Of a stretch of 64,000 nucleotides of DNA, positions 6,027-24,266 are shown piece by piece. The stretch lies in contig JAPOPM010000081.1 of NCBI GenBank assembly GCA_026712905.1, positions 1-64,000 of the forward strand, in the 5' to 3' direction. Position 1 is the stretch's first letter. Every line of letters begins with the position of its first letter. The position numbers were made by a program, and so were the translations under genes. This DNA is from Deltaproteobacteria bacterium. Its GTDB lineage: Bacteria > Desulfobacterota > Binatia > UBA9968 > JAJDTQ01. The notes beneath the pieces were generated by a model that saw only the letters and a list, made by a program, of their open reading frames with translations, was not told where the DNA came from and searched no databases.

Positions 6027-7139
6027 ATGAGCAAGCCATCCCTCCTTTCGGGGCGGAAGATCGACCCCAAGCCCATCGACGCCGGCACGAGCATCGTCGA
6101 TCTCATCGACGACAACTTCGTCTCCTACAACAGCGGGCGTCTGCGAGAGGCCTGTCAGCTCTTCACCGAGAAGATCCTCGCGGACGACGTGACCGTGGGA
6201 CTCAGCATCACCGGGGCGCTGACGCCGGCGGGGCTCGGCATGACCGCCTTCATCCCGCTCATCGAGCACGGCTTCGTCGACTGGATCGTCAGCACCGGCG
6301 CGAACCTCTATCACGACACCCACTTCGCCATCGGCCTGTCCATGCACCGGGGCACCTTCGAGGCCGACGACGTGGACCTGCGGGAACAAGGCGTCGTGCG
6401 CATCTACGACATCTTCTTCGACTACGACGTGCTCATCTCCACCGACGACTTCTTCCGCGAGATCCTCAAGGCGCCCGAGTTCCAGAAGGAGATGGGGACC
6501 GCGGAGATGCATTACCGCGTGGGCCGCTATCTCGACGAGCGCGAGAAGATCCTGGGGCTGGAGCGGCGCTCGCTCTTGGCCGCCGCCTACCGGAGCGGCG
6601 TGCCGGTATACACCTCCTCGCCCGGGGACAGCTCCATCGGCATGAACGTCGCCGCCCTCGCACTCAAGGGCAACGGCCTGCGCTTCGACGTGTCGCGCGA
6701 CGTCAACGAATCCGCCGCCCTGGTGCTCGAGGCCAAGCGGCGCGGCGGACGCAGCGCCGCGGTCATCCTCGGCGGCGGCTCGCCCAAGAACTTCCTGCTC
6801 CAGACCGAGCCGCACATCCAGGAGGTGTTGGGGCTGGAGGAAAAGGGCTTCGACTACTTCATCCAGGTCACCGACGCGCGCGTCGACACCGGCGGCCTCT
6901 CCGGGGCGACGCCGGCCGAGGCGGTGAGCTGGGGCAAGGTGGACCCGGACCAACTGCCGGACTCCGTGGTCTGCTACGTCGACAGCACCATCGCCGTCCC
7001 GCTGATGACCGCCTACGCCATCAACAAGCACGCGCCGCGCAAGCTGAAGCGCCTCTACGACACACGGGAGGAGGCGCTGGAGCACATCGCCGGCGAGATC
7101 CGCGAGAAGTTCGGCAACGTGCCGCTGGCGCAGCGCTGA
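6027..7139 (+). CDS. Deoxyhypusine synthase-family protein (bacterial DHS-like)
   Basis: This 370-residue protein belongs to the deoxyhypusine/homospermidine synthase fold, which transfers the aminobutyl group of spermidine in an NAD-dependent reaction. Conserved elements include STGANLYHD (residues 89-97), [11 protein letters not shown] (about 198-207), LGGGSPKNF (248-256) and the catalytic lysine in SWGK (Lys304). Bacteria have no eIF5A, so the acceptor is probably a small amine such as putrescine (homospermidine formation) or an unknown protein. It is 67 bases downstream of mlaA on the same strand; moeA follows after 73 bases. Family is firm, substrate is not. Confidence 0.88.
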
Positions 7140-7212: not shown

Positions 7213-8466
7213 ATGACCACGACAAATGCTCACAAGGCATTTTTCAGGGTGGTGACGCCGGCGGAGGCGTTGGCGGCATTGTGCCAGGTCGACCCCGTCG
7301 AAGCGGAGGCTGTCCCCACCACCGAGGCGCGCGGCCGCGTGCTGGCCGAAGACCTCTACTCGCAAGTGGATCTCCCCCACTTCAACCGGGCCGGCATGGA
7401 CGGCTACGCGGTCATGGCGCGGGATACCTTCGGCGCCAGTCCCGCCCTGCCCGCCTACCTCAGGCTCGCGGGAACCGTGGAGATGGGAGAGGAGGCCACG
7501 CGCCGCCTGGGCGCGCGCGCGGCCGTGCGCATCTCCACCGGCGGCATGCTTCCACCCGGGAGCGACGCCGTAGTCATGGTGGAGCACACCGAGGAGACCG
7601 GCGACGGGTCCGTGGAGATCCACAGGGCCGCCTCCCCCTGGCTCAACGTCATCCAGGTGGGCGACGACATCCGCAAGGGCGATCCCGTGTTCGCGCGCGG
7701 AAGGCGGCTGCGCGCCCATGACCTCGGGGCGCTCACCGGCATCGGCATCGCGTCGGTGCCGGTGTACCGCAAACCGCGGGTGACCCTCATCTCCACGGGC
7801 GACGAGATCGTCGGGGTGGACCGGGAGCCCCGGCCCGGACAGGTGCGCAACATCAACCAGCACTCGCTGGCCGGCCTCATCGCGGAGTGCGGCGCCACGA
7901 TGAACGATCTCGGCGTGGTGCCCGACGAACCGGCGGCGTTGCGGGCCGCGCTGACCGAAGGCCTTGGCTGGGGCGACCTGGTGCTGCTCTCGGGCGGCAG
8001 TTCCATGGGCACGCGGGACATGGCGGTGGAGGTCATTCAATCGTTGCCGGATTCGCTGATCTTCTTTCACGGCATCTCCGTAAGCCCGGGCAAACCCACC
8101 ATCTATGCCCACGCCGCGGGGAAGTCCGTACTGGGACTTCCCGGCTACCCGGTGTCCGCGCTGGTGATATTCGACCTGTTCGCCGCGCCGCTGATCCGCG
8201 CGCTGTCCGGCGAGAGCACGCCCGCCGCGCACACGGGACGGAACACGGTTCGGGCGGTGATGGACACCAACGTTTCGTCGCAGACCGGCCGCGAGGATTA
8301 CGTACGCGTCACCCTCGCGAGCCGCGGCGAAACGGTGTACGCCCTACCGCTGCCCAGCAAGTCCGGCGCCATCTTCACCCTGGTCAAGGCCGACGGCATG
8401 GTGCGCATCGACCTCAACCGCGAGGGACTGGAGCAGGGCGAGGAGGTGGAGGTACTGCTTTTCTGA
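7213..8466 (+). CDS. moeA: Molybdopterin molybdenumtransferase MoeA
   Basis: MoeA inserts molybdate into adenylylated molybdopterin in the cytosol, the last step of basic Moco synthesis. The 417-residue length is normal. Signatures seen are PHFNRAGMDGYAV (residues about 56-68), RISTGGMLPPGSDAVVMVEHTEE, the MoCF-domain STGDEIVG, LLSGGSSMGTRD and FHGISVSPGKPT. A second MoeA-type gene starts 24 bases after its stop, so the two are likely co-transcribed. A molybdopterin oxidoreductase that could use the cofactor is encoded at 33,700-35,754. Confidence 0.95.
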   Translation: MTTTNAHKAFFRVVTPAEALAALCQVDPVEAEAVPTTEARGRVLAEDLYSQVDLPHFNRAGMDGYAVMARDTFGASPALPAYLRLAGTVEMGEEATRRLGARAAVRISTGGMLPPGSDAVVMVEHTEETGDGSVEIHRAASPWLNVIQVGDDIRKGDPVFARGRRLRAHDLGALTGIGIASVPVYRKPRVTLISTGDEIVGVDREPRPGQVRNINQHSLAGLIAECGATMNDLGVVPDEPAALRAALTEGLGWGDLVLLSGGSSMGTRDMAVEVIQSLPDSLIFFHGISVSPGKPTIYAHAAGKSVLGLPGYPVSALVIFDLFAAPLIRALSGESTPAAHTGRNTVRAVMDTNVSSQTGREDYVRVTLASRGETVYALPLPSKSGAIFTLVKADGMVRIDLNREGLEQGEEVEVLLF

Positions 8467-8490: not shown

Positions 8491-10425
8491 ATGGCGCGAA
8501 AACGGTACCTCAAGAAGACCCCGCTGGAGGAGGCGCGCTCTCTCTTCCTGAGCCGCGTCGACCCAACCCTGCTGGAGGCCGAGACGGTGGCGGTGGCCGA
8601 CGCCCTCCACCGGGTCACCGCCGAGCCGGTTTTCGCGAAGATGTCCTCGCCGCACTACCACGGCTCGGCCATGGACGGCATCTGCGTGCGCGCGGAAGAC
8701 ACCTTCGGAGCCACGGAGTTCACGCCGCGGGAGTTGCGGCTGCTCGCGGACGAGGGAGACCCGCAAGGCCGGTTCGCCTACCTGGACACCGGCCAGCCGT
8801 TGCCGTCCTGGGCCAACGCGGTGATCATGATCGAGAACGTGCGCGAGACCGACGTCGCCGCCGTGTCCATCGATCAGGCGGCGACCCCGTGGCAGAACGT
8901 ACGCCTGGTGGGTGAGGACGTCGTGGCCACCGAGCTGCTGCTGCCGCGCAACCACCGGCTGCGGCCCTACGACCTTGGCGCCATCCTGGCGGCGGGCCAT
9001 ACCACGGTGCGGGTCAAGGCGCGCCCGCGGGTGGCCCTCATCCCCACGGGCGACGAGATCACGCAACCGGGAGATTCGGCGCGGCCGGGCGAGATCATCG
9101 ATTTCAACTCCACGGTCCTGGGAGCCATGGTGACGGAGTCCGGCGGCACCCCGGTGACCCTTCCCCCTGTCGCGGACGACCCCGCGCTCCTGAAACACGC
9201 CCTGGACGAAGCGTTGAAGGATCATCACCTCGTAGCGCTCATCGCCGGCTCCTCCGCCGGCGCGCACGACTTCACCGCGGAGGTCATCGACGACGCGGGC
9301 GAGCTTCTGGTGCACGGCATCGAAGTCATGCCCGGAAAGCCGGCCGTGCTGGGGGTCGCCGCGGGCAAGCCCGTCATCGGCATTCCCGGTTATCCTGTAT
9401 CGGCCATCGTCATCGCGCGAGAGATCCTCCAGCCCGCGCTCGCACGGCTGCTGGCCGCGGGCGCCTCATCCCCTCCGAAGGTCCGCGCCGTGGCGCCGCG
9501 CAAGATTCCGTCGCGGCTGGGCCTGGAGGAGTTCGTCCGCGTGACCCTGGGCCGGGTGGAGGAACGCCTCGTGGCCGTGCCGCTGGCGCGCGGCGCCGGG
9601 GTCATCAGCACCATGGTGCGCGCCGACGGATTCCTGCGCATACCGGGAATGGTGGAAGGGATCAACGCCGGCGAGGAAGTCGACGTGGAGTTGCTGCGCT
9701 CGCCGGACGAGGTGGAGCACACCATCCTGTGCACCGGCAGCCACGACCTCTCCATCAGCGTGCTGGAGGACCAGCTCAAGCGCCGGGACCCGCGCCTCAA
9801 GATCGCCGACGCCAACGTCGGCAGCCTGGGCGGCCTGCACGCGATTCGCCGCGGCGAGACCCACATGGCCGGCACCCACCTGCTGGACCCCGACACCGGT
9901 GCCTACAACGTCCCGGACATACGGCGGGTGTTGCCCAAGGCGCCCGTCGTGCTCGTGCACTGCGTCAAGCGGCGTCAGGGACTGCTCGTGCCGCGCGGCA
10001 ATCCCAATGGACTGTCGGGCATCGCCGACCTGGGTCGACGGGACCTCCACTTCGTCAACCGCCAGCCCGGCTCGGGCACCCGAGTGCTGCTGGATTTCGA
10101 ACTGGCGCGGCTCGGCGTGGACCCGGCCGCGGTCCAGGGGTACGAGCACGAAGAGTTCACACACATGGCGGTGGCGGTGGCCGTGGCCAGCGGCCTCGCG
10201 GACACCGGCCTGGGAATCCTCTCCGCGGCCGAGGCCCTCGGGCTGGACTTCATCCCGGTGGGCGACGAGCAGTACGATCTGCTGCTACTGCGGTCATTCC
10301 ACGAATCCCAGGCGGGGGCCACGCTGCTGGCGGTGCTTGGATCGCAGGAGTTCAGGGAAGCGATGGAGTCCCTCGGCGGCTACGACTGCTCCGCCACGGG
10401 GGAGATCCTCTACCAGCAGCGGTAG
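8491..10425 (+). CDS. MoeA-like protein fused to a periplasmic-binding-protein-like domain
   Basis: Residues 1 to about 405 are a second full MoeA unit (HYHGSAMDGICV, TGQPLPSWANAVIMIE, PTGDEITQPG, IAGSSAGAHD, HGIEVMPGKPAVLG). From about residue 412 (HTILCTGSHDLSISVLEDQL) to 644 comes a PBP/LysR-effector-like domain with RQPGSGTRVLLDFEL and a late FIPVGDEQYDLL strand pair. No signal peptide is present, so the domain works in the cytosol, presumably sensing molybdate, tungstate or pterin. Such fusions are known in archaea and some bacteria. Paired with the preceding stand-alone moeA, it may handle a different metal (Mo versus W) or regulate insertion; that role is inference. Confidence 0.9.
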   Translation: MARKRYLKKTPLEEARSLFLSRVDPTLLEAETVAVADALHRVTAEPVFAKMSSPHYHGSAMDGICVRAEDTFGATEFTPRELRLLADEGDPQGRFAYLDTGQPLPSWANAVIMIENVRETDVAAVSIDQAATPWQNVRLVGEDVVATELLLPRNHRLRPYDLGAILAAGHTTVRVKARPRVALIPTGDEITQPGDSARPGEIIDFNSTVLGAMVTESGGTPVTLPPVADDPALLKHALDEALKDHHLVALIAGSSAGAHDFTAEVIDDAGELLVHGIEVMPGKPAVLGVAAGKPVIGIPGYPVSAIVIAREILQPALARLLAAGASSPPKVRAVAPRKIPSRLGLEEFVRVTLGRVEERLVAVPLARGAGVISTMVRADGFLRIPGMVEGINAGEEVDVELLRSPDEVEHTILCTGSHDLSISVLEDQLKRRDPRLKIADANVGSLGGLHAIRRGETHMAGTHLLDPDTGAYNVPDIRRVLPKAPVVLVHCVKRRQGLLVPRGNPNGLSGIADLGRRDLHFVNRQPGSGTRVLLDFELARLGVDPAAVQGYEHEEFTHMAVAVAVASGLADTGLGILSAAEALGLDFIPVGDEQYDLLLLRSFHESQAGATLLAVLGSQEFREAMESLGGYDCSATGEILYQQR

Positions 10426-10857: not shown

Positions 10858-12354
10858 TCAGCGCTCGCCACCGAAGCTTGCCGTGAGGTCATTGCGTTCA
10901 ATCACCCCGGCCACACCCTCGTGGGAGTCGCCGAAGAAACCGGCGGTGATCCGGCCGGCGTCGCCGCCGGCGCGAACGAGGCTGTTTCCTCGTAGGACGA
11001 CATCGTAAACCAGGTCGCCCTCGCCCCAGTGCGTACCGCTACCCATTGGCCCGGGCGGCTGCCCGCCGGACCAGGACTCCATCGCCGTCAGCCGGAGCGT
11101 ACCGGCGCGCGTGTCGAATCGAATCGTGAGGTCGGCCACACCGGCGACAGTCGCGCCGTCCGGCGTGAACCCAAGGACGCGACCGGACCAAGCGAGACTC
11201 CCCGATCGGGATGGGGCTCTCGCCAGGTCGGCGCGCGCCGCGGGACCGCGAACCCATGGCCGGGCCAAGCCGTTCCGGAGCCCGACGCCGAATGCCACCA
11301 TCGCGCCCGCCGCGTCGAACTCGCCCAGGACGTGCGTCGAGGTGTCCTCCCAGGACTCCAGGGCGCGGGCGATGTCGCCGGGCGTCGCGCCGGGCGCGAG
11401 CCTTCCGTGGACGGCGAGAAGGACCTCGCGGTCCAGCGGATCGAGTATCTCGCCCGGCCTCACCGGTCCGTACACCGGACGCATGACCGATCGGGGGAAC
11501 CGATCCGGGTCGGCGTGCTGGCGCCCGAGCACGTGCAGCATCTCGTGCACCAGGACGTGAAGACGGCCTTCGCCGGTGGCGCGCGCGGGGTCCACCCACA
11601 CTTGGCCCGTCCAATGGGAGCGACGCGGCTCACCCGTGGCGCGTCTCAAGACCCAGCCGTCGAACTCGCCCTGTCCCGAAACATGCGGGGTCTTCGCCGC
11701 GCGTTCGGCCCCCAACCATACTTCCGCGGGCGCGAATCGGACGAAGATCTCCCCGTTGGGTACGGCAGGCCGTTCGCACGGGACACTCTCGCACTCCAAC
11801 GTGCCGAAGCCTTCGGCCGCCTCCATCGGGACGAGAACGTCGTCGAACCGCAACCGGTGTTCCCGCGGCAGTGCCGCGTTGATCCACTGCACCGCGCGTA
11901 CCGTCTGATCGACCAACTCGGAGGTCGCTCCTTCGACCACCCGGACGGTCATCCTCGCTCGGCGCGGCTTGCGGATGCCGGAAGTCTCCTCGGCTTCGAT
12001 CGATAGATATTCGATCAGCTTGCGCGCGCCCACGCCGTCGGCGACACGGCCGTACGCCAGCCGGACGTTTCCATGCTCGCCCACGACGGCCAGGGATCCC
12101 GGCGCGGGTACAACGCCCGGGTTCACGTGCAATGACACGCCATCATGGATGGTGGGAGGGTTCAGCGCATCCGACGGGCGTTGCAGCGGCAACGCGGGAA
12201 CGCGTCTCGGCGGGACGGCGGACGGGGCCGTGGGCCCTGTCGGAGTCGGCGGCGATTCACCTCCCGCGGCGCGTGGCCCCAAGCCCTCGCCAACAGACAG
12301 GACCGCAACGAACCCGGCGACCACGGCCATGGATATGGTCCGGCGCCGCTTCAT
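10858..12354 (-). CDS. Secreted metzincin-like zinc metalloprotease with a C-terminal TbpB-like barrel domain
   Basis: The 498-residue protein starts at the ATG at 12,354 with a positively charged, hydrophobic signal sequence (residues 1-24) and a Pro-rich linker. The zinc motif HEMLHVLGRQH (His270, Glu271, His274, His280) fits the HExxHxxGxxH consensus of matrixin/metzincin proteases. Residues beyond about 390 form repeated short strands (LAWSGRVLGFTP, TIRFDTRAGTLRLTAMESW, ITAGFFGDSHEGVAGVIER, TASFGGER), the pattern of the C-terminal barrel of transferrin-binding-protein-B-like surface proteins. No lipobox is seen. A clear paralogue is encoded at 35,751-37,208. The substrate is unknown. Confidence 0.75.
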   Translation of the reverse strand: MKRRRTISMAVVAGFVAVLSVGEGLGPRAAGGESPPTPTGPTAPSAVPPRRVPALPLQRPSDALNPPTIHDGVSLHVNPGVVPAPGSLAVVGEHGNVRLAYGRVADGVGARKLIEYLSIEAEETSGIRKPRRARMTVRVVEGATSELVDQTVRAVQWINAALPREHRLRFDDVLVPMEAAEGFGTLECESVPCERPAVPNGEIFVRFAPAEVWLGAERAAKTPHVSGQGEFDGWVLRRATGEPRRSHWTGQVWVDPARATGEGRLHVLVHEMLHVLGRQHADPDRFPRSVMRPVYGPVRPGEILDPLDREVLLAVHGRLAPGATPGDIARALESWEDTSTHVLGEFDAAGAMVAFGVGLRNGLARPWVRGPAARADLARAPSRSGSLAWSGRVLGFTPDGATVAGVADLTIRFDTRAGTLRLTAMESWSGGQPPGPMGSGTHWGEGDLVYDVVLRGNSLVRAGGDAGRITAGFFGDSHEGVAGVIERNDLTASFGGER

Positions 12355-12578
12355 GGTTTTGCGCGGCAAACCCTTCCTTCCAACAAAACGGCGACTCAAT
12401 GCGGACCCCGGCCTCATTGCCACGGACACACGCCGCGACCTCAAAGGGGTTTCCCTTATAGGGCGACGATCAAGACGTGTCAAAACGCGCCGGACGCGCT
12501 CTTGCGCGGCGTACCCCTCTTCGCTACCGTGAGCCGTGAGGCCCAGTCAGCCAATGGGTCAATGGCAAGGAGGCGAAC

Positions 12579-13907
12579 ATGAAGCGCGTGGCACACGTCG
12601 TGAACCAGTTCTTCGCCGGTATCGGCGGGGAGGAGAAGGCGGACGTCGCCGCCGGCACCCTCGACACCCTCGCGGGGCCGTCGCGCGGCCTGCAGCGGCT
12701 GCTGGAGGGTCGGGCGGAGGTGGCGCCCACCATCTACTTCGGCGACAACCACTTCCACGAACAGCCGGAGGAGGCGCGGGCGGCGCTTCTGCGGGAGATC
12801 GCGGCGGCCGAGGCGGACGTCGTGGTGCTCGGACCCGCGTTCAACGCCGGGCGCTATGGCCTCGCCTGCGTCGAGATCGGCCACATGGTCGCGGCCGAAC
12901 TGGAGCGCGTGTGCGTGACGGCCATGCACGAGGACAACCCGGCGGTGGACGCATACCGCGAGTACCACGACGCGCGGCTGTTCCTGTTGCCCACCACGGA
13001 GACGGCGGCGGGCATGGGCAAGGCGCTGGAGGAACTCGCCCGTTTCGTTCTCCGGCGGCTCCAGGACGAACCCGTGGGCGCTGCCGAGGACGAGGGCTAC
13101 CTGTCGCGGGGGATCCGCTTCCAGGAGCGCAGCGGGCGGACCGGCGCGGACCGGGCGCTGGACATGCTGTTGGACAAGATCGAAGGGAAGCCCTTCGCCA
13201 CCGAGATCCCCATGCAGACATGGGACCGGGTGACGCCGGCCGCCGCGATCAAGCAGGTGGGCAAGGCCAAGATCGCGCTGGTCACCACCAGCGGCGTGGT
13301 GCCGTGGGGCAACCCGGACGGCTTCAAGACCTTCCGCAACACGTTCTGGCGCAAGTATCCGGTGGCGGAGCTGAAGACCATGGAGCCGGGCACGTGGGAA
13401 GCGGTGCACGGCGGCTACAACGTGGCCAACATGAACGCCAACCCGCTCTACGGCGTTCCCCTGGACGCCCTGCGGGAGCTCCAGCAGGAGGGCAAGTACG
13501 AGGACCTCTACCCCGCCTACTACGTCGTCCCCGGCAACCAGGGCTCACCCGCAGCCATGCAGCGGATGGGCGAGGAGATCGCCGCGGAGCTCAAGGCCAA
13601 CAGCGTGGATGCCGCGCTGTTGGTGAGCACGTGAGGAACCTGCAGTCGCAGCGGAGCTGTGATCAGTAAAGAATTGGACCGTGCCGGAGTTCCCGTGTCG
13701 ATGATCAGCGCCATGTTCCCGCTGGCGGAGCAGGTGGGCGCCAGCCGCATCGTCAAGGGCGTCAAGATCCCCCATCCGTGCGGCGACCCGACCCTGCCGC
13801 CCGAGGTCGACGAGAAGCTGCGCAAGTCCATCGTCGAGACCGCGCTCAAGGCCCTCGAGGAAGAGGTGGAGGAGAGCACCGTGTTCACGCCGGAAACCGC
13901 CTCATGA
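12579..13907 (+). CDS. grdB: Selenoprotein GrdB homologue (glycine/betaine/sarcosine reductase component B), UGA at codon 352 read as selenocysteine
   Basis: In clostridia GrdB is the substrate-binding selenoprotein of glycine, sarcosine and betaine reductases. This gene encodes 442 residues if the in-frame TGA at 13,632-13,634 is Sec352. Residues 1-351 match the family (VNQFFAGIGGEEKAD, LGPAFNAGRYGLAC, LVTTSGVVPWGNPDG). Past the TGA the same frame reads GTCSRSGAVISKELDRAGVPV and then IPHPCGDPTLPPE and STVF, the normal GrdB C-terminus. The redox motif is U-G-T-C; the second Cys of the clostridial UxxCxxC is Ser here. A conventional annotation would stop at 13,634 and split the gene. The start ATG follows AAGGAGG. 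It overlaps the next gene by ATGA. Confidence 0.92.
13645..13663 (+). promoter_or_regulatory. bSECIS-like hairpin directing UGA recoding
   Basis: Ten bases after the UGA an 8-bp stem (13,645-13,652 pairing with 13,656-13,663, two G-U pairs) closes a GGA triloop. Spacing and G-containing apical loop fit the bacterial SECIS element bound by SelB. The element lies inside the coding sequence, as required in bacteria. Folding was done by eye. Confidence 0.65.
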
Positions 13908-15229
13908 GCGGCGCCCGGCACGCCACACCGCTGGAGCTGGCGGAGTTCCCGGTTCGGGATCTCCGCTTCGGCGGGACCCTGCAATACGCCGGCGGCACGC
14001 TGGAGGTGGCGGAAGCGGAGCTGGTGGAACTGGCTTCGCGGGATCCCCGGATCCTCGAGGTCGGGCTCGACATCGTGCGTCCGGGCGAGCGGATACGGGT
14101 CACCGGCATCCGCGACGTGGTGGAACCCAGGGTCAAGGTGGGCGGCGACGCGCAGGTGTTTCCGGGCATCACCAGTCCGGTGGTGCCTGTGGGGCGCGGC
14201 CGCACCCATCGGCTCTCGGGCATGACCCTCATCACCACCGCCGCCTACGAGGGCACCATCCGCACCGGCACCACCGCGCAGCGAAGCGCCATCCTGGACA
14301 TGTGGGGGCCTGGGGCCGACCTCTCGGGCTTCAGCGGTGTTCCGAGTCTGGTGCTGAACCTGCGGCTGCCGCCGGACCTGATCGAGGCCGAGGCGCACCA
14401 GGTGATCCAGGCCGCCGAGTACCGGGTGGCGCAGAGGCTCGCAGAGGCCACGGCCGCGGCCGAACCCGCCACCGTCGAAACGTTCGGCGCGGCGCACGGC
14501 CATGCAAACTTGCCCAAGGCCGTGGTGATCGTGGGCTGCATCACCGAGTCGGAGCATCTGCCGTCCGGCCTCGGGTACTACGGGCTGCCGGTGCGCGAGT
14601 CCCTGGCCACCGTGGTGCACCCCAACGAGATGATGGACGGCGCGGTCACCGGCAACACGCTGAAGACCATCGCCTACTACCCCACCACCTGGGACTGGCA
14701 GAACCAGCCGCTGGCCATGCGCCTGTCCCGGGAACACGGCAAGCGGGTCGATTTCGCCGGCGTGATCCTGCAGCGCATCCGCTTCGAGGCCTTCCGCGAG
14801 AAGGAAGTGGCGGCACACAACGCATCGCAGGTGGCGCGCGCGCTGGGAGCGGAAGCCGCCCTCATCACCTGGCTCGGTTCGGGCAACGCCTTCCTGGAAG
14901 TGATGCTGACGGTACGCGCGTGCGAGGAGCAAGGCGTCCGGACGGTGCTGGTCACGTATGAATACGGTGGCCAGGAGGGCACGGACTCACCGCTGCTCTT
15001 CTACGACACCCACGCCGACGCGGTGGTGAGCACCGGCAGCCGCGACCGCATCCTGGAGCTGCCGCCCGCCGACCGGGTGGCCGGCGCGTACCAGGAACTC
15101 CAGGTGCTCAACTATCCCGGCGCCCCCGTGGTTTCGGCCCTGGACACCATCACGCTGGACGCCACCGACGCCATCATCGGCGCCACCGACCTGTGGGGCG
15201 GCCGCGACTGGACGTGCCGGGCGCACTGA
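13904..15229 (+). CDS. GrdE-like glycine reductase component B subunit lacking the pyruvoyl-forming cysteine
   Basis: The 441-residue protein aligns along its length with GrdE, the proprotein that supplies the alpha and beta subunits of component B: RFGGTLQYAGG, LDIVRPGERIRVTGIRDVVEPRVKV, GRGRTHRLSG, WGPGADLSGFS, NEMMDGAVTGN, LVTYEYGGQEG. In clostridial GrdE, Cys242 in the SGNC motif is cleaved autocatalytically to form the pyruvoyl group that forms a Schiff base with substrate. Here the matching position is Thr252 (TGNT), so normal pyruvoyl formation is unlikely. The ATG overlaps the upstream stop as ATGA, so the two proteins are translationally coupled. No GrdA, GrdC or GrdD gene is nearby. 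Confidence 0.88.
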   Translation: MSGARHATPLELAEFPVRDLRFGGTLQYAGGTLEVAEAELVELASRDPRILEVGLDIVRPGERIRVTGIRDVVEPRVKVGGDAQVFPGITSPVVPVGRGRTHRLSGMTLITTAAYEGTIRTGTTAQRSAILDMWGPGADLSGFSGVPSLVLNLRLPPDLIEAEAHQVIQAAEYRVAQRLAEATAAAEPATVETFGAAHGHANLPKAVVIVGCITESEHLPSGLGYYGLPVRESLATVVHPNEMMDGAVTGNTLKTIAYYPTTWDWQNQPLAMRLSREHGKRVDFAGVILQRIRFEAFREKEVAAHNASQVARALGAEAALITWLGSGNAFLEVMLTVRACEEQGVRTVLVTYEYGGQEGTDSPLLFYDTHADAVVSTGSRDRILELPPADRVAGAYQELQVLNYPGAPVVSALDTITLDATDAIIGATDLWGGRDWTCRAH

Positions 15230-15244
15230 GCGGAAACGTCGGGA

Positions 15245-15569
15245 CGTCATTTCGGCGGAACGGGCTGTATCGAGACTCGGCTCGGATGAGAGATGGCGCG
15301 ACCACCCCGACTCGTCATTCCCGCGGAACAGGCTGTATCAAAACGTCGCCCAGGCAAGAACTGGCGCCAACCCCTCGGGTCGTCATTCCCGCGGAAGCTT
15401 GCCCTCGACCCCGATCGGGGGCGGGAATCCATGCGAGGGTGGTGGGGGAACGCCCCTGTAGTGCCCCGCCACCCCTGGATTCCCGCTTCCGCGGGAATGA
15501 CGACTTGGGGTCGTGGTGCCGTTTCGTAGCCCAGCGGAGTCTCGACACACCCTGTGCCGCGGGTATGAC
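15245..15569. repeat. Composite palindromic repeat (CAGGCTGTRTCAAAAC ends, ATTCCCGCGG core)
   Basis: The gap between the grd genes and the VOC gene is filled by repeat copies. CAGGCTGTATCAAAAC at 15,329-15,344 faces a degenerate inverse (TCTCGACACACCCTG) near 15,540-15,554. Inner arms GTCATTCCCGCGGAAGC (15,382) and GGATTCCCGCTTCCGCGGGAATGAC (15,477-15,503) are inverted. A degenerate half copy starts at 15,245. No gene is seen here. Confidence 0.75.
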
Positions 15570-24036: not shown

Positions 24037-24266
24037 GTCATTCCCGCGAAACAGGCTGTGTCAAAACTGGTGAGGCACCGCCCCCTGATTAGAGGCAACA
24101 ACCCCCGATTCGTCATTCCCGCGGAAGCGGGAATCCATGGGCGGTGGTGGGGCACTACAAAGGCGTTTCCCCGCCTCGCCGCCCCTGGATTCCCGCTTCC
24201 GCGGGAATGACGAATCGGGGGGCGGCGCCTCACCAGTTTTGACACAGCCTGTTTCGCGGGAATGAC
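24037..24266. repeat. MITE-like nested palindrome with CAGGCTGTGTCAAAAC ends
   Basis: Long inverted arms run inward from GTCATTCCCGCGAAACAGGC (24,037) and its inverse GCCTGTTTCGCGGGAATGAC (ending 24,266), continuing through GTGTCAAAACTGGTGAGGC. Inside lies the ATTCCC-N8-GGGAAT core at 24,115-24,134 and its inverse at 24,188-24,207. A partial copy (CAGGCTGTGTCAAGACT) precedes it at about 23,982. No coding capacity; this looks like a non-autonomous mobile repeat. Confidence 0.8.

Follow-up and report, generated by a model that had tools for sequence, protein, structure and literature searches.

The window analysed here, a 64-kb stretch of DNA, corresponds to contig C81 of a 4.8-Mb draft genome that is 98.9% complete. 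On the forward strand it holds a grdB-like selenoprotein gene (12579..13907), whose ATG lies 5 nt downstream of a Shine-Dalgarno-like AAGGAGG (12567..12573, +) that can be read directly. From this ATG at 12579 the frame runs into an in-frame TGA at 13632-13634, continues for 90 sense codons and stops at a second TGA (13905-13907); the predicted product has 442 residues, with selenocysteine (Sec) at position 352 in the sequence VSTUGTCSRSG. A bSECIS-like hairpin follows the internal TGA (13640..13666, +), and a gene for a GrdE/GrdG-like alpha subunit of component B comes next (13904..15229, +), its start overlapping the distal grdB stop (ATGA). The positions that an initial annotation had assigned to gene, TGA and hairpin all hold on direct reading.

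Other features of the window deserve mention in their own right. On the near side of the grdB-like gene are found (i) a deoxyhypusine synthase family protein (6027-7139; PF01916, 248 bits), here in a bacterium, (ii) two neighbouring MoeA genes (7213-8466 and 8491-10425), the second of which is fused to a PBP-like substrate-binding domain, and (iii) a 541-residue open frame on the reverse strand (10858-12483), upstream of and divergent from grdB, which has no Pfam match and is preserved in frame among the closest relatives. The window also contains ten copies, against 0.02 expected, of the palindrome TTCCCGCG(A/G)AAGCGGGAA, the first just downstream of the alpha gene at 15480-15497 and the others at 24116, 24190, 39809, 39833, 47901, 47972, 52327, 52399 and 62982. 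They mostly form inverted pairs 24-74 bp apart, and the palindrome resembles a REP or MITE-type element.

Translated through the internal TGA, the grdB-like protein scores 437 bits (cut-off 65.45) against the NCBIfam profile TIGR01918, of whose 431 positions it covers 1-430; the product ending at the TGA reaches 322 bits. The read-through form also matches the Pfam family PF07355 with 367 bits (cut-off 22). As had been proposed, the TGA falls on the UxxC redox motif of GrdB, where it is the U of UGTC (U352 in STUGTC), and the frame goes on as a GrdB C-terminus for 90 codons. Because the profile match spans the full length and exceeds the curated cut-off, and Sec occupies the UxxC site, the protein belongs to the GrdB selenoprotein superfamily (TIGR01918/PF07355), and its identification as a GrdB homologue was correct.

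Mechanical open reading frame calling, on the other hand, yields exactly two pieces, a 351-residue GrdB and a small open frame at 13659-13907, the very split that the initial annotation had foreseen from standard gene calling. This is what one would see if the TGA were a true stop and the gene decayed or divided, a reading that we regard as extremely improbable in view of what lies beyond the TGA. When the window is compared with its six closest relatives, dN/dS is 0.04-0.14 after the TGA and 0.07-0.15 before it, and 91 of the 113 differences fall at third positions, which shows that purifying selection past the TGA equals that before it. The UGTC...G motif, encoded by the codons that separate the TGA from the GTG of the small open frame farther on, is kept in every relative. 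The start of the alpha gene overlaps the distal stop and not the TGA, an arrangement that is sensible only if ribosomes reach the distal stop. A true stop is also at odds with the complete Sec machinery of the host, described below, and with the codon found at this site in other genomes.

Our scan of named genomes retrieved 19 orthologous loci with 57-97% identity, in metagenome-assembled genomes (MAGs) labelled Candidatus Binatia or Deltaproteobacteria and in one labelled Syntrophobacter. At the site each of the 19 carries TGA, never TAA, TAG or Cys, and both paralogues of the window's own genome likewise have UGA and not Cys. Conservation of UGA or Cys among orthologues, the point on which the initial annotation had staked its reading beforehand, is thus borne out. 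More broadly, the full-length matches among 58 relatives carry a TGA inside the gene, with a further stop in a more distant minority. Pseudogene, split gene and sequencing error were all considered as explanations and rejected, because independent MAGs, as well as two single-chromosome assemblies, conserve the same arrangement.

The hairpin consists of an upper stem of 8 bp (13645-13652 with 13656-13663) that begins exactly 10 bases past the TGA and carries a GGA apical loop (13653-13655), just as had been described, to which our analysis adds a CA bulge (13643-13644) and a lower stem of 3 bp (13640-13642 with 13664-13666). It folds with -11.4 kcal/mol, an energy that is mildly unusual for the 31-nt element (z -2.3) and less so for 49 nt (z -1.0). 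We looked for covariation in 24 distinct sequences, drawn from the window clade, from the genome's own two paralogues and from further genomes in the phylum. The upper stem is paired in 91.7% of cells, a level reached by none of 500 shuffles, and double changes occur in 20 cells versus a shuffle mean of 6.5 (again 0/500); slid-stem controls pair in only 19-59% of cells, and in both score and double changes the true stem exceeds all shuffled and slid versions. Pairs switch between C-G and U-A, A-U and U-A, and U-A and G-C. Within the clade, the stem codons +4, +5, +6, +8 and +9 do not differ between sequences that have the same residue, their silent sites being frozen, whereas the wobble position of the loop codon changes freely and the neighbouring codons vary. 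The suggested check against bSECIS models was answered in part: the hairpin does fold, but the Rfam SECIS models give no match to the window copy at gathering or relaxed thresholds, while the paralogue on contig C29 matches SECIS_4 at 47 bits. On the strength of the comparison between genomes, the hairpin is a bSECIS-type element.

The host was predicted to encode SelA, SelB, SelC and SelD, none of them within the 64-kb window, and a search of the whole genome supports both statements. The selA (578 bits), selB (381 bits) and selD (370 bits) genes stand side by side on contig C102, and a tRNA-Sec with anticodon tca (73 bits) is found on contig C263. The selD gene that adjoins selB and selA (G000:C102:16403-17329) has an in-frame TGA of its own. 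What marks a bacterial selenoprotein gene is therefore present, namely a genome that also encodes SelA, SelB, SelD and tRNA-Sec, and a covarying stem-loop immediately 3' of the UGA. The comparative evidence makes it very probable that the TGA at 13632-13634 is a selenocysteine codon and that the gene makes a GrdB-like component B selenoprotein. Automatic annotation would divide this gene and so conceal its catalytic residue.

We also examined the predicted structure of the read-through product. The model (pTM 0.54, moderate; one row of its alignment, L025:4892-6196, was out of frame) puts the Sec352 codon between a strand (345-350) and a helix (353-368), and with moderate confidence Sec352 would thus sit at a strand-helix junction, as expected for a nucleophile. 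The out-of-frame row also lowers the count of invariant columns in that alignment and enters none of the other results. A Foldseek search with the model gave no match at E <= 0.001, only generic Rossmann-like resemblances, and sequence searches with both the grdB-like protein and the alpha subunit found no relatives in the PDB.

The partner encoded at 13904..15229 matches PF09338 with 298 bits, but TGNT replaces the SGNC of the pyruvoyl processing site, a motif that is present in all seven canonical GrdE-like controls of the alignment; its relatives are varied at this site (T, A or other). The alpha subunits of the window clade have conserved cysteines of their own (IVGC/IQGC, RACE and a C-terminal WxC). 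Lacking the processing-site Cys, the protein falls outside the pyruvoyl-type GrdE/GrdG subunits and, as far as its residues tell, is unable to form the pyruvoyl Schiff base through which glycine and sarcosine are processed. Non-pyruvoyl alpha subunits have been described for fluoroacetate reductase (FarE) and betaine reductase (GrdI) (PMC10838667). A fourth GrdE-like alpha subunit of the genome (G000:C189, L034:3626-4957) is 57% identical to that of the window, and no GrdB gene is found near it within the stretch examined.

The kind of GrdB encoded is less easily named. It is unlikely that the window protein is an ordinary but divergent B subunit of a glycine, sarcosine or betaine reductase. 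Its full-length TIGR01918 match is compatible with this, and its best sub-family scores are with GrdF and GrdB (412 bits each); moreover, the betaine-type GrdI also has no pyruvoyl Cys (PMC10838667), and a betaine-like substrate is possible. The scores, however, are far under the curated cut-offs of the glycine GrdB equivalog TIGR01917 (412 of 602 bits), of sarcosine GrdF (412 of 800) and of betaine GrdH (NF040795; 390 of 775). The published glycine-reductase motif (PMC9751293) is absent from the window protein and matches just two controls from the phylum (loci L083 and L085), both in genomes with GrdD (493-507 bits). The partner lacks the Cys that glycine and sarcosine require, and Ser stands at the second Cys of UxxCxxC throughout the window clade, nearly all members of which also have FGD or YGD instead of CGD. 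In a midpoint-rooted tree of 35 rows this clade is separate from the pyruvoyl-type GrdBs with a support of 100/100. From the scores below cut-off, the missing glycine motif and the partner without pyruvoyl Cys it follows that "GrdB homologue" is right and "glycine reductase" wrong.

Could the pair instead be a component of a reductive dehalogenase of the fluoroacetate or another haloacetate type, similar to FarBE? Among curated models FarE ranks second for the alpha subunit, and FarB has no CxxC cysteines and FarE no pyruvoyl Cys (PMC10838667). Yet the FarE score (NF053623) is 104 bits, far under the cut-off of 675 and lower than that for GrdG (202 bits), and neither farA (transporter) nor farC (radical SAM) has a homologue among the genes examined beside the pair. 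We hold this identity to be quite improbable.

Much of the remaining Grd system is encoded elsewhere in the genome, not beside the window pair. Contig C175 carries a GrdA with CFVU, its Sec encoded by UGA, adjoining a GrdC (NF040746, 508 bits, cut-off 450). GrdD has no match in the genome, which thus holds GrdA and GrdC but not a complete Grd system, and none is found over the cut-off in eight relatives, two of them assembled as single chromosomes. It is also not found in three genomes with a pyruvoyl-type GrdE (G033, G088 and G099), and its absence therefore extends beyond the window clade and does not set that clade apart. At three loci of other MAGs (L040, L048 and L049), grdB, alpha, GrdC and GrdA stand in one row, an order that ties GrdA and GrdC to the pair; at the first of these the row is preceded by an NMT1/THI5-like binding protein.

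The setting is not clostridial, as had been noted. The host belongs to a Binatia/"Deltaproteobacteria" lineage that includes sponge-derived MAGs, and its genome encodes a haem-copper oxidase (COX1, 495 bits). Aerobic methylotrophy has been described for sponge-derived Binatota (PMC9999580), and aerobes rarely keep selenoproteins according to a recent review (PMC13188914). The selenoprotein family is already known; what is new is its setting, within a variant Grd system, and the corrected reading carries Sec-dependent Grd chemistry into a Binatia-related lineage. GrdB copies number three in the sponge-associated genus and up to 20 in one groundwater MAG. The latter, G286, is an 8.3-Mb groundwater-type MAG of the same order with 9% contamination, and its 20 GrdB-family matches (e.g. 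on C122, C130 and C409), an unusual expansion, have one in-frame TGA in each of those listed.

In the known Grd chemistry (PMC13188914, PMC10838667), the substrate is bound by component B, whose Sec attacks it at the alpha carbon; the carboxyalkyl group is then handed to the Sec of GrdA, and component C produces an acyl phosphate. We interpret the window pair as the component B of a Grd-type reductase that is GrdD-less and non-pyruvoyl, would follow a logic like that of FarBE or GrdHI and probably acts on a substrate other than glycine. SelB would recognise the hairpin after the UGA at 13632-13634 and deliver Sec-tRNA, giving a single selenoprotein of 442 residues, and the ATGA overlap would couple its translation to that of the alpha subunit, with which it may form the substrate-specific component B. 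The selenol of Sec352, at the start of its helix, could then attack the carbon alpha to the carboxylate and expel the leaving group to give a Se-carboxyalkyl selenoether; as no pyruvoyl Schiff base would form at the alpha subunit, the leaving group would need to be a good one unaided, and primary or secondary amine acids are improbable substrates. The carboxyalkyl group would pass to the Sec of GrdA, and GrdC would release an acyl thioester, possibly handing the acyl group to CoA since GrdD was not found. As to substrate and acyl acceptor, this explanation is tentative, with somewhat less than even prospects of being right.

An arrangement with neither pyruvoyl group nor GrdD suggests a repurposing of the Grd system towards other substrates and another energy outlet, and the many copies make this question testable. 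One might speculate that the lineage has undergone a radiation of Se-dependent, non-pyruvoyl, GrdD-less Grd reductases that cleave C-X bonds of non-amino substrates, for example carboxylates that are halogenated or carry a quaternary amine, and that supply acyl-CoA metabolism in bacteria respiring oxygen, a wider proposal that we find rather doubtful.

Set beside known systems, the locus is similar to each of them in part. Like the GrdB-type bSECIS hairpins (Rfam SECIS_4), its stem-loop lies just 3' of the UGA with an apical loop that starts with GG, at the same position as in the C29 paralogue that Rfam recognises; it differs in containing a G-U pair and in the sequence of its stem, and has no Rfam call. 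With the glycine reductase GrdB/GrdE of clostridial Stickland fermentation it shares the GrdB fold family, STUGTC, the UGA followed by a hairpin, an alpha partner, and GrdA and GrdC in the genome. It departs from it in an alpha subunit without the pyruvoyl Cys, UxxCxxS in place of UxxCxxC, the absence of the glycine motif and of a detectable GrdD, the gene order B-alpha, and a non-clostridial host with a haem-copper oxidase. Betaine reductase GrdH/GrdI likewise combines a GrdB-like selenoprotein with an alpha subunit, GrdI, that is not a pro-protein (PMC10838667), but the GrdH model scores the window protein at about half its cut-off. FarBE of Synergistota differs in that the window pair is below the family cut-offs, has no farA or farC seen beside it and retains the first Cys of UxxC, yet it offers the same combination of a selenoprotein related to GrdB, a GrdE relative that is non-pyruvoyl, and fewer protective cysteines (PMC10838667).
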